Assembly (NCBI RefSeq): GCF_037975245.1
Contig: NC_092579.1
Coordinates: 11,270,678-11,334,677 of the forward strand
Source of the DNA: Apostichopus japonicus
Lineage: Eukaryota; Echinodermata; Holothuroidea; Aspidochirotida; Stichopodidae
Length of the DNA stretch: 64,000 bases
Direction: 5' to 3'
Of the stretch, positions 6,888-31,668 are shown piece by piece. The first letter of the stretch is position 1, and each line of letters starts with the position of its first letter. The translations under genes and the position numbers were made by a program. The notes beneath the pieces were generated by a model. That model had not been told where the DNA came from. It saw only the letters and a program-made list of their open reading frames with translations, and searched no databases.

Positions 6888-9800
6888 ATGACGTTTGACA
6901 GTGCAGTGGTGGCTAATTCCACATCTTTAGCTCTTGTAACCATAACAACAGCACTGGTTGGAATTTGGATATGGAGTCAACAGAAACCAACCAAGGACTT
7001 CCCACCTGGACCAAAAGGATGGCCTCTTGTTGGCAATATCATAGGTAAGGGCAGATAAATTAGTTGATATACTGTACGTGCAAGAATACTGTACATTAAT
7101 TCTTCAAGAAGAGCGAGAGCCGAGATGTAACGATTTCTGACAGAAGCTGTTCAAACAAATTTCCTCCGAGTTTTCTGCACAACAAAATGACATCCAAGCT
7201 TGTTTATTTGTGATTCAGTTCCAGGCCTATTTCATAGGTTCCTTAACTTTCAGTACTTTGTCTAACATATCTCACACCATTTGCTATTTTTTAATTAAGT
7301 TTGTTCGGTTTTCTCTTAGAGCTTGCACGTAATGAGAAGCCTGCCTTTGTTGTCTTCACCGAGTATGCTAAGGAGTATGGAAATATATTTTCCATAAGAG
7401 TAGGTAATAGGTGGGCTGTAGTCCTGAATGGTGCAGCTACAATCAAGGAAGCTCTCCTGAAGAAGGGTGTGGAGTTTGCTAACAGAACAACCAGTTATAC
7501 TAGTAAGTCTGTTTTTTAGTTCATAAAGTATAATCACTTTTTGCTTTTGATAATCAACTATAACCTATAGGCTAACATGCGGATGGACCTCGTACTTTGG
7601 GATATTTGGATAAGTCATATTCATTACTAGCTTCACCACTGTTGACCTAAGGGGTTGTTTGAGGTCAGCAGAAGAAAAAGAATGTAGAAACCCTGTAATG
7701 CAAACACAATCTTTCAAGTTAGGTGTCTTGTACTGATCTGACAAATGTTATTTTCAGTAGATTCATTTTATCTAAAATGGTAATGTATACGGTTACTTTA
7801 CGGTCACAACAGAGATCAAATGGTGAAAACATTATGCATCTCAAATGAGACTTCTTGGACTGCAGGTACAAATGCAAATAAAAAATAGATCAGAGATTAA
7901 ATGGTGAAATCATGCATATCAAATGAGACTTCTTGGACTGTAGGTACAAATGCAAATAAAATATAAAGCATTCATACTTTAACAGTAACTTCCTTTCCTG
8001 TTTAGCTGACTTATTCACTGAAGGTGGCCAGGATATTGCCTTTGGCCAATATTCTCCATCTTGGAAGCTACACAGAAAGCTTGCCTTTTCTGCTTTCAGG
8101 TAAATTTATTCAAAACCTACTTTTTTATAGCAAGAGATCAGCTCTCAACAGATCAAGTAATTATCTATTAACAAAGCAACCTTTTCATAGGGAAGTTTCA
8201 ACATTACATATGAGAATCTTGCCTTTGAGCAAACTCGATAAAATTATCTGTCAAACCTTCAGAGCTGGCTGCATGCTTATTTATGGATGCCTGAATAAAA
8301 CCCACAAGGGTACTAATTCTAAGCAGCATGTATTGAAGTTGGAAGGTGAATACTACAACAGCTCTAACACAGCGCAGGCTTTACACTGTAACTGAGTAAA
8401 TTGTGCACTCGTGGTTGCTTTGTTAATATTTTAGTTGTACATTTATACTGCCATCATGCAGGGACATGATACGTAATATGGGTTGCAACTTGCAATAGAG
8501 CATGGGAGGCTCCAATTGTCAGAAACCCACACACTTTGCTTAGAAACTTTGTTTGCTGGGTGCCGATTTGAGTAAAGAGGAGCAGCTGCCATATCTGTCC
8601 ATGTACAGCTGTATGAACATTAATGCTACTCAAGGTTATAATAGCTGGTGACATGTATCGCAATTATCAGTCGACACTATTGTAACGTCACAAACAGACA
8701 CAAACAGACACATAGACATCAGAAAGAGAGTTGCTAATTACTAGGTTGTTTCGGATACATACAGTACATATATATTCACAGGTGAGAAATCCGGCATAAG
8801 GGAAAATTTCCCTAGCCCTATGTCCCTTGTCCTTAAATAACTGAATGATGCAAGTACAACTTCTTACAGAATATCTGCCTGATGTATGAAAAACAGAAAC
8901 TGCTAAATCCAACAAATGGAAACAGTTAAAGGTATGCGCACTCGATGATAACGAGATGAAAAGTGGTAACACATGGGTGGAAGCAGACAATCCACGGGGT
9001 GGTGTATAAGAATTGTAAGAACTAATAAGGATCCTTGAAGGTTCAGCAAGAGAGCTTATAAACTTACCTGGATTGGCCTATCCAATACCAATGTCACACT
9101 ATGATTACTACTGTACCTCATAGTAAAGAAAAGTCTAATTGGTTTTACTTACTCTTTTATGTTCACTTTCAATGACCTTTTCAATGTTTCAGGAAGTTGG
9201 CTACTGGTGACAACAAGAGATTTGAGAAGCTGGTGTATTCCATCATTCCTGCCCTTACAGCGAATTTGGACTCCAAACTGTCGGAACCGTTTGACCCGCA
9301 TACATCCCTGTCATCATCCATCTATAATATTCTGGCGAGTTTGTGCTTTGGCAAACAGTAAGTTGAGAATGTACAATATTGGAAGTAATGTGGTACTGTA
9401 GTGTCATCTCTCACACCCAAAAATTCTTTATATCAGTGAGACAGATGTTGCAGGAGTGAATGGAGGATTTTGAAGAGGAGGATATGTGATTTCATTGAAG
9501 CTGACTCCGATGTGGGAGGTGCGCGGGTCCGATGCTGGAGGTACGTGCGCGGACCCGATGCGGGAGGTGCGCGGACCCGATGCGGGAGGTGCGCGGGCCC
9601 GATGCGGGAGGTGCGCGGGCCCGATGCGGGAGGTGCGCGGGCCCGATGCGGGAGGTGCGCGGGTCCGATGCGGGAGGAACTGAAAACTTAACATGTTAAG
9701 TGATACATTCTCAGGTATATTTAGGATATAAAAATTAGGAGTATAATTAGGGCTACACACACGGTTGTGCTAATAAATACTTTTAACTTTTTGTATGGGG

Positions 9801-12800
9801 AAAAAAAGGGTGTGGGGGTTTATACATGCACACCACCCCCTGGATCAGCATCTATGTTGGTAACACAGAATGATTCTTTTATGATAGTGTTGTAGCAATA
9901 TGTGACACCTGCTTGTTAACAAGATAAATCGAAAGTTCGGAGAGGATTAACTTCATACTGAGCAAATCATATATGTCAATGAATCACAACACTAACTGGC
10001 TTTCTGGATTATGTTCTGTGTCTTAATTGTTTCTGGTTTCTAGGTATGAATTTGATGATCCGCAACTTACTCGCTTGATATACCTGAGTAAAGAAGCGGA
10101 TAAACTTGCTGGAAGTGGTAGTCTTGCTGACTTCATACCAATCTTCAAATACGTTCCTACTCCTGGTCAGAGAAAACTGGAAGCTGTGTGGAAAGAATTC
10201 TTGGGCTTCATCAGCCAAGAATTGGAGGAACACCGTGAGAAGTATGATGGGGGTAGGTAGCTCTATGATGTATATGGCTGCAAATAGGAGGGGCTGGTAG
10301 TATGGTGCATATCTCTCTGTCGACAAAAGAGGTGGGATGGGATGGGATGGGGGGGGGGGAGGGCATAAGGGAAGTGTCAGGAGAATCACAGCATAACAGA
10401 TTGGAAGAGCCACACATTACTACACTGACCTTAATGTCGTCTCATAGATCATTGGACCTATTTAATGGGCACACTCTCCATTTGTGCCAACTAATATTAA
10501 TTAACTTGTCACAATCCCGTTGATTCTCTGATTTACACGGGCGAACCAACTAATATAAAACATTAATTAATTCGCACCATCCCATTAAATCTCTGATTTA
10601 CACCAGCAAACCAAACTAATATTAATTAATTTGCACAATCCCATTAAATTCTCTGATTTACACAGGCGAACCAAACTAATATTAATTAATTTGCATTCAT
10701 CCCATTTAATCTCTGATTTACACAGGCGAACCTAAGGATTTCATAGAGATGCTCTTACAGTCTCGACAAGAAATCAAAGACGAAGGCAAAGAAGATATGA
10801 ACTTGATAACAGAAACCCGTATCAGACAGACAGTGACGGATGTATTCACTGGTAAGGACATTCCCTAAACCAAAGTTTCCAATGGAGGGAACATATTTGT
10901 AAAGGTTGTAGGGTTTTGCATGATGGTGGTAAAAATATTCATGCAAATGACAACACTTAATCAATGAGCTATTAACATGCAAAACTGGATATAATTATGC
11001 AAACATAATCTTAAAGTAAAACCAGAAGAAAACAGGAAATAACAAAAACACAATTTGAAATTCAATCTTTCAATAATGGTTCATCATTTTCATGTTGACA
11101 GACACTTTTTAATGTACATTAAAAATTCTTATGCAGTGAAGTAACCAAGGGTTTCATTTAGACTTATCAGATAGATTTTTTTATTTTGTGTCTTGTAAAT
11201 CTTCTCAACGACTTTATTTCCTTGGTATTTCAGCTGGTACGGATACGTCCATATTTACCTTGCAGTGGTGTGTTGGACTGATGGTGCAATATCCAGAGGT
11301 GCAAGCCAAAGTAGCCGAAGAAGTGGATCGTGTCGTGGGAAGAGATAGGCTGCCCTCACTTGATGACCGTGGGGAGTTAGTATACACCACAGCAGCCCTG
11401 TACGAGGTTATGCGGTACAGTACCATAGCTCCTTTAGCCTTGCCACATGCTACGTCGACGGACGTAGAGTTTGGTAAGCACTTAACCTAGCTATGCTATA
11501 TGACACTGCAGCTGAATAGTGGTTTGGCCACCTATGACAACAGAAATTAGATTAAAGAAAGAACCACCAATCAACTGCAGTTTGTACTTTCACTAATTAA
11601 CAAAGACAACAGTGATGTATATGCTCAAATAAGCCTTATACTAGTTTTATTAAAATTAAAGGTATATATATGTTTTTAGAAGAGTATTGTTTAGAATATT
11701 GACATGCTTGATAAGCCTTTTTAATTCACATTCCTGCTTCACAGGTGTATAAATCTTTCTCTTTATATTAATTTCCAGGTGGTTATACCATCCCTAAAGA
11801 TACTTGGGTTTTAGTGAACATCTACTCCATGCACTTTGATGAAAAACTCTGGGATGAACCTAAAAAATTCACACCAGGTAAGGTTAGATTCAAAGTTCCT
11901 TTACTAGTGAGTATGGTGACATTAGATTAACAGATGGTGTCTCTAGGCATGTGACCTTTCCCTTTTATGGGTCTTGCCGAAGGCAGACGGAATCTATGCA
12001 ATGGTGATGGCCTGTATGTGTCTGTGTGTGTATGTGACACTTGCTCGTAAACAATCTTAACTTCAGAAAGATAACTGGGATACATTTGATGTTTGGTATG
12101 TAGGTTCCCCTTAGGTAGAACTGGTTTGGGAATGTTGTTGGTATCGGTCAAAGGTTATTCGTGGTCAGCATGGCTCACAGTCTGAAAACATTATTCACAC
12201 AATATCTTAAGAAGTAGAAGTTGCAGGAAGTTCAAACGTGGTGTGTTGCTTGCTGTTGGTGAGTAGATGATCTGTAGTGTTTATCATGATGTCAAAGGTC
12301 ATTTTAGGTCAGCAGAGGGAAAAAGTGTGAAAATCTTGTAAACATGATATCTCAAGGAAGGTCGCATATGCAGTTCTATTATTTGTCTAATTGATTTCCT
12401 CTAATTAGTTTAGCAAACTCTATTGATTGTAGTGGAGGTCAAAGGTCATTTGAATATATATTTGAATATATATGTGAATATATCAAAAGTGCTATATCTC
12501 CAGAACCAGAACATGAAAGGTTTTCATATGTGGTATGATAGTCTTTGATGTAGGTCAGAGTTCATTTAAGGTCACCAGGTGTCAAAACTTGAACACTATG
12601 TAACTACGATATTTCCAGATAGGAAACTGCAGTAGCTGCCGCTGTTATGTATGGCTATGGCATCTCTATAATGAGTACAAGAACCCCATTGTTTTGGTGG
12701 AGAGTACAGGTCATTTGGGTTCAGCAGAGGTTACACTCTGGAAATTTTAAACATGGCATCATAAGATATCATATTGGCATATGACTTTCCTAAAATGAGT

Positions 12801-13675
12801 ACAAAACTGCAGTAATTTTGTTGTGAAGGTGTAAGGTCTTTTGAGGTCAGCAAGGGGGAGAGTGTATATACCTTGGAGGCACTGTTGGTGGATAATTTTG
12901 TTTTCAAGTTGAAACTCCTAATTTGCTTCAAGTCAATGGTTAATCCTAGCAAAATTCAATCCCTCAATCGTTAATTGCTCTATCAATCAGGTGATTCCAT
13001 GTACAGTATAAACCTATAAGGCAAAAGAATCACTAAGCCTGCTAGTTCATGCTTAAGAAAATTGTGACAACACTAATAGAAGTTACTGTTGGTAAAGTCT
13101 TGATCAAATGGTATACATTTACATAGAAACTATACAGTCTATGCAGACTGGTGTATGGTACCAAGTTGCACTTAGGGCAATATTCTAAAAAAAACAAAAA
13201 TCGTGCTTGGTCTGCAAAGCAGAGTATTTGAAGAAAAACTATCATTGTATAAATAATAAAAAAGTTGTTAATGAATTTGATATCATTTCTGCAGCATCAG
13301 TTTACCAACTGGATATAAAGTCAACCGAAGTGTGCAGGAGAAGACTTTGCATATTTGCAACCTCAAGTTACTGTTGTATAGCAAAATATTGATGTGTTTA
13401 TTTCTCTCTTTGCGATGACAGGACATTTCCTGGATGAGAGCGGAAAGGTTCGTCTCCACCCAGAAGGTTTCATGCCCTTCTCTACCGGACGCCGTGTCTG
13501 CATCGGTGAATCGGTTGCCAAGGCTGAGCTCTTCCTTATCTTTGCGTGGTTATTCCAGCATTACAAGTTCAGCAAACCTATCGGGCAGGAAGAGAAAGAT
13601 TTTTCGGAAGGAAACCCCCAGCCTGCAGTGAATATGATGAAAGACATTGAGGTTGTTGTAGAGAAACGCTTTTAA
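6888..13675 (+). CDS. Cytochrome P450, clan 2 (CYP17/CYP1/CYP2-like), complete 9-exon gene
   Basis: Haem-thiolate monooxygenase, probably on the endoplasmic reticulum, oxidising a small lipophilic or steroid-like substrate (substrate inferred only). Exons: 6888-7044, 7320-7502, 8006-8099, 9193-9357, 10044-10252, 10726-10851, 11234-11473, 11779-11877, 13422-13675. All junctions are GT/AG and sum to 1527 nt, or 508 aa, the usual length for the clan. Visible landmarks: N-terminal anchor about residues 7-29; proline hinge FPPGPKGWPLVG (38-49); C-helix WKLHR (133-137); I-helix AGTDTS (312-317); K-helix EVMR (369-372); FTPGHF region; haem loop FSTGRRVCIG with Cys451. The start was chosen because the paralogue at 31668 begins at the same place relative to the shared VVANSTSL segment. 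Closest known families by eye are CYP17, CYP1 and CYP2; the exact subfamily is not resolved. Confidence 0.93.
7805..7968. repeat. Two-copy tandem duplication in intron 2 of CYP gene 1
   Basis: About 80 bp is repeated: ATCAAATGGTGAAA, CAAATGAGACTTCTTGGACT and GGTACAAATGCAAATAAA occur in each half with a few differences. Confidence 0.88.
9520..9684. repeat. GC-rich 21-bp minisatellite in intron 4 of CYP gene 1
   Basis: Seven to eight units of GATGCGGGAGGTGCGCGG plus three bases (A/GGG/CCC variants). The unit is a multiple of three, so several frames stay open (for example GPMREVR repeats). This is a repeat artefact, not a gene. It is strikingly GC-rich against the AT-rich surroundings. Confidence 0.92.
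10505..10735. repeat. Tandem repeat that duplicates the splice acceptor of exon 6 of CYP gene 1
   Basis: About four units of ~60 bp with the core CTCTGATTTACACAGGCGAACC and the linker AACTAATATTAATTAATT. The last unit holds the real acceptor (ACACAG, exon start 10726). The third unit has an identical CACAGGCGAACC; the first and second carry altered acceptors (CACGGG, CACCAG). Confidence 0.9.
12296..12311 (+). promoter_or_regulatory. DR4 motif (AGGTCA-TTTT-AGGTCA)
   Basis: Two perfect half-sites with four bases between them, the spacing used by LXR, TR and CAR-type receptors. It overlaps an imperfect DR1 (TGTCAAAGGTCA). Function is inferred only. Confidence 0.4.
12436..12448 (+). promoter_or_regulatory. 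DR1 motif (AGGTCAAAGGTCA)
   Basis: Two perfect AGGTCA half-sites with one base between them, the consensus bound by RXR/HNF4/PPAR-type nuclear receptors. It is intronic and lies inside a repeat, so occupancy is unknown. Confidence 0.4.

Positions 13676-19667: not shown

Positions 19668-31668
<12,001 letters not shown>

Follow-up and report, generated by a model that had tools for sequence, protein, structure and literature searches.

A probable minisatellite of the mirage type duplicates the exon 6 splice acceptor in three paralogous cytochrome P450 genes of Apostichopus japonicus

In this study, we analysed a stretch of 64,000 nucleotides of the Apostichopus japonicus genome (the window, to which all positions refer unless a contig is named), in which a cytochrome P450 gene carries a 60-bp tandem repeat across the boundary between intron 5 and exon 6. 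Studies of lancelet genes have termed such boundary-spanning tandem repeats, in which many copies hold splice signals, mirages (PMC3087553). We believe it likely that the P450 array is a minisatellite of this type, in which the duplicated acceptor is near-neutral and productive splicing is carried out by the real site.

Tandem Repeats Finder (TRF) placed the array at 10489-10732, with a 60-bp unit, 4.0 copies, 82% matches and a score of 302. Its right end lies seven bases inside exon 6, with the real acceptor at 10726 included, and each of the four boundary-spanning units comprises about 53 bases of the intron and 7 of the exon. From the first copy to the fourth, the units end in CACGGGCGAACC (no AG), CACCAGCAAACC (AG shifted, junction 10607), CACAGGCGAACC (junction 10666) and again CACAGGCGAACC (the real site, junction 10726). 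The preliminary description of this DNA had proposed that a repeat of about 60 bp copied the 3' splice site and the first exon bases several times. The unit and its four copies bear this out, as does the location of the array, except that its left edge was slightly wider than described; the junction itself is identical only in copies 3 and 4, and an AG stands at it only in copies 2-4. The same description was right that the third copy equals the real site and leads to an in-frame TAA, which follows residue 273. The features concerned are as follows.

6888..13675, + strand: whole P450 gene, nine exons, 508 codons (spliced gene model, PF00067 profile)
10044..10252, + strand: P450 exon 5, donor after 10252 (gene model)
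10489..10547, + strand: repeat unit 1, AG lost, CACGGGCGAACC (TRF, unit anatomy)
10548..10612, + strand: repeat unit 2, shifted AG, junction 10607, CACCAGCAAACC; if used, stop after residue 276
10613..10672, + strand: repeat unit 3, intact decoy acceptor, junction 10666; stop after residue 273
10673..10732, + strand: repeat unit 4, real acceptor (junction 10726) and first 7 bases of exon 6
10726..10851, + strand: P450 exon 6, acceptor junction 10726 (gene model)

All introns of the gene are of the GT-AG kind and its reading frame, once spliced, stays open over 508 codons; exons 5-8 matched the cytochrome P450 profile PF00067 with 210.3 bits (E 6.3e-62; curated cut-off 22.8). The best solved chains were CYP1B1 and CYP1A1. 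In 200 kb of flanking DNA on the sides of the window, no P450 exons were found at E 1e-3.

In a search of the whole genome (671.6 Mb in 35 contigs), the array was present, among the best candidates scored, at C2:16.627 Mb and at C19:23.087 Mb (C2 and C19b below) in addition to the window. Both are intact nine-exon paralogues with the exon lengths of the window gene and with the array at the same acceptor. The number of units differs between the paralogues, being four in the window gene and three in each of the others; with the real site counted, the AG is kept in three of four copies in the window gene and in two of three in both C2 and C19b. In all three genes, unit 1 has no AG and the copy adjoining the real site has an intact one, at a distance from the real site of 60, 59 and 61 nt in the window, C2 and C19b genes, respectively. 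The decoy junction ATTTACACAGGCGAACCAAACTAAT occurred genome-wide at three exact places and at two more within 3 mismatches, all in the three array genes, and the reversed pattern, used as a control with up to 3 mismatches, occurred at 0 places. A dispersed element was also considered as a candidate and was rejected, the decoy junction with up to 3 mismatches being confined to the three array genes in a search made with the junction sequence. The ratios of nonsynonymous to synonymous substitution rates (dN/dS) were 0.47 for window-C2, 0.29 for window-C19b and 0.16 for C2-C19b.

Tandem arrays with periods of 20-300 make up 9% of the window sequence and 5% of the surrounding 264 kb, so a splice boundary inside some array is not rare as such. 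One of them, a GC-rich 22-bp minisatellite of 7.6 copies (9507-9677, TRF), lies in intron 4 of the same gene. When the 48 boundaries of the 24 introns in the three array genes were compared with shuffles, only the exon 6 acceptors had an upstream intronic copy that beat the best of 20 shuffles, and they did so in all three genes (23, 22 and 22 of 24 bases, against shuffle maxima of 15, 15 and 14). In this comparison, no boundary array was found beyond intron 5.

The exon 6 acceptor was read in 11 genes, three with the array and eight without it, among 80 scored matches of a protein search of the genome; matches running through exons 5-7 in one frame, and weaker matches, stand outside this set. 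Of the eight genes without the array, five lie on C19 (three at 1.17-1.33 Mb, two at 17.37-17.39 Mb) and two on C6 (9.7 Mb); the eighth is a second P450 of the window, on its minus strand. All eight have a single acceptor at the same protein position, with a best upstream match of 11-15 of 24 bases over a search range of 404-514 nt (1160 nt for the second P450 of the window) rather than whole introns. Exons 5 and 6 have the window gene's lengths in all five of these outgroup genes that were aligned, and exon 7 does in four of the five, being one base longer in the roughly aligned second P450. The single acceptor of the gene at C19:1.33 Mb, TTTCTCCGATTCACACAG|GTGAACC, shares 84% over 31 bases with that of the window gene, CTCTGATTTACACAG|GCGAACC, and by this alignment is evidently its homologue. 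Because a homologous single acceptor exists outside the array genes, and because the same intron place has one acceptor in all eight other paralogues examined, the splice site predates the repeat and seeded it, not the reverse. This contradicts the earlier suggestion that the splice site may owe its present location to the repeat.

In a tree of exons 5-7 from 8 of the 11 genes, the three array genes stood apart from the other five with a support of 82 (FastTree 0.92), and C2 paired with C19b (97; FastTree 0.99). A tree of the ten units, which rests on sixty bases and has little power, clustered the three first units together and the three second units together (supports 0.75-0.90), with the last units basal. 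Since units thus group by order across genes, a multi-unit array is older than the gene copies. The extra unit of the window gene, which is the decoy, was placed next to the first units (0.82) with a branch of zero length; it would have been gained by the window gene or else lost before C2 and C19b separated.

The host of the array was checked by its mitochondrial code. Contig C35, taken as mitochondrial, holds a full COX1 with 11 in-frame TGA, which fits translation table 9 best (504.9 bits, against 483.3, 474.1 and 472.2 for tables 4, 5 and 13), and AAA falls at positions where asparagine is usual. Table 9 is the mitochondrial code of echinoderms and flatworms and is not known from lancelets, in keeping with an echinoderm host. 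Thus, the lancelet host, a descriptive trait of known mirages, is not found here. Fragments of COX1 also occur in a second contig (G000:C29, 14745-31219), as nuclear copies or in a mis-assembled mitochondrial contig.

The P450 array has the anatomical features of mirage minisatellites, which have been reported in the lancelet genes Adh3, PGBD5 and TnC and the globins BflGb6 and BflGb9 (PMC3087553, PMC3902484). As in lancelets, its unit spans the exon-intron boundary, its copies keep splice signals and its unit number varies, here between paralogues; the 60-bp unit also resembles PGBD5, in which 60-bp and 108-bp repeats lie over splice boundaries (PMC3902484). Unlike the lancelet mirages, the P450 array sits in an echinoderm, is common to three paralogous genes and has in each an intact decoy that leads to an early stop. 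Internal tandem repeats in human segmental duplications are similar in that minisatellites lie at boundaries in gene duplicates and differ in unit number between paralogues. In contrast, new introns and alternative transcripts are described there (PMC2812944), whereas the P450 intron has an old position that it has kept. In Drosophila, the sliding or gain of introns by tandem duplication likewise involves a tandemly copied segment with splice signals (PMC2891723), but no new or moved intron is seen in the P450 gene. The novelty of the present case lies in the host group and in the ancestry shared across three genes. We found no mirage arrays outside lancelets in the open-access literature searched, and no wider claim is made.

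If the intact decoy were used, translation would end after residue 273 in each of the three genes, with the stop codon 171-173 nt ahead of the exon 6/7 junction and 510-512 nt ahead of the last one. By the usual 50-nt rule, a stop more than about 50 nt before a later junction leads to decay, so this early stop should trigger nonsense-mediated decay of the message. The haem-binding motif of P450 is encoded in exon 9, and a protein made from the decoy transcript would be without this exon and its motif. Local signals were scored with an acceptor matrix, which is rough because it was built from 29 acceptors of the array and related genes, many of them homologous. The scores of the decoy and the real site were 5.5 and 4.4 in the window gene, 11.2 and 8.6 in C2, and 5.5 and 11.2 in C19b; other AGs of intron 5 scored at most 1.9. 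In the window and C2 genes, every unit with an AG has YTNAY motifs 35-53 nt before it, with no intervening AG. Scanning runs from the branch point to the first AG (PMC1431707). In C19b, another AG lies 28 nt upstream of the decoy and no YTNAY motif follows that AG, so the decoy would be handicapped there under scanning. The real unit of the window gene has YTNAY motifs at 26 and 16 nt, nearer its AG than those of the decoy, and in C2 both units are alike; the nearer motifs may be treated as a lead to the basis of site choice and not as a result. No RNA structure hiding the decoy was indicated, the window array folding about as its shuffles do (z -0.76).

We propose the following course of events. 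In the ancestor of the three genes, the last approximately 50 bp of intron 5 and the first approximately 7 bases of exon 6 would have been tandemly copied upstream, as the comparison of paralogues supports. The right-hand copy, shown to be at the old position, would have remained the authentic acceptor, and the left copies would have turned into intronic decoys. In the window and C2 genes, each unit with an AG has its own branch-point-like motifs with no AG between, so the acceptor used would follow from the branch point chosen; in C19b, another AG separates such motifs from the decoy. The real site would have to be used enough to make protein, because the reading frames of all three genes are intact and under constraint (dN/dS). 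Decoy use would give the early stop and probably decay, and we expect it to be low and near-neutral.

Several points weigh against this explanation. The decoy outscores the real site in two of the three genes by the crude matrix, and the local sequence thus offers no reason for the decoy to be passed over. Selection for the decoy would likewise be expected to leave it intact next to the real site in all three genes, and an invariant run of 32 columns (10656-10687), the longest in the intron alignment of these genes, falls on the decoy, though not beyond chance. Column shuffles reached this run in 54% of trials, so conservation of the decoy above its surroundings was not detected (p 0.54; three paralogues, low power).

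These points bear first on a regulated switch, in which the choice between the real acceptor and a decoy whose product is destroyed by nonsense-mediated decay would set the level of P450 message. The presence in all three genes of an intact decoy adjoining the real site, each with the stop after residue 273 at 171-173 nt from the exon 6/7 junction, together with its higher matrix score in two genes, would suit such a switch. However, the decoy shows no excess conservation, its spacing varies, C19b has the extra AG before it, and comparable lancelet arrays were reported not to disturb splicing, reverse transcription PCR having suggested regular splicing despite a mirage (PMC3087553). The sequence tests thus give no support for a switch between productive and decaying transcripts, three sequences having little power, and we consider it unlikely. 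An unregulated leak, in which the decoy would be used at an appreciable constant rate and the genes would tolerate the splicing load, has a still smaller chance of being correct: the local signals of the two sites are nearly equal and the reading frames are still intact and constrained, yet under a steady loss one would expect the decoy AG to decay, and it is intact in all three genes, although unit 1 did lose its AG. Just as doubtful is a poison-acceptor module kept through gene duplication, in which unit turnover would copy the real site and keep one intact decoy beside it, and unit number would tune how much P450 message is destroyed; on the same account, the unit 2 acceptor of the window gene would have changed while the extra unit supplied the intact decoy. 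That a mobile or dispersed element carried the splice site to where it now lies is hardly credible, for although the array ends on the splice site, the eight other paralogues examined have one acceptor at that position and the decoy junction, with up to 3 mismatches, was found in the three array genes only; an artefact of assembly or collapse, to which tandem arrays are prone, is equally remote given diverged array copies at three separate loci.

Other P450 genes and their repeats were also observed. The second, more diverged P450 of the window (19671-31656, - strand) lies tail-to-tail with the first and has exon 6 at the same place without an array. Its 16 boundaries, roughly placed and scored without shuffles, gave 13-17 of 26 bases, except one donor with 20 of 26 in TA-rich sequence. 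At 21136-21184 (- strand), a similar pyrimidine tract and CAG stand 26 nt upstream of its exon 8 acceptor (TRF score 61), a possible two-copy acceptor duplication that may be due to chance. A different tandem repeat of about 146 bp, which ends short of the splice site, occurs in intron 5 of the sister P450s at C19:1.25 Mb (L031, 49-433) and C19:1.33 Mb (L033, 317-611), and a minisatellite of about 22 bp was seen by eye in intron 5 of the paralogue at C19:17.37 Mb (L034). Many of the 80 scored matches span exons 5-7 within a single open frame longer than 300 codons, which suggests that intron-poor P450 genes are numerous in this genome.

In this study, paralogues that have the array and paralogues that lack it allowed the ancestry of a probable echinoderm mirage to be ordered, and this case suggests that the process is not peculiar to lancelets. 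The array genes offer a natural test of spliceosomal choice between near-identical acceptors that lie about 60 nt from each other, and they also bear on whether the length of a minisatellite at a splice site changes the output of a gene.
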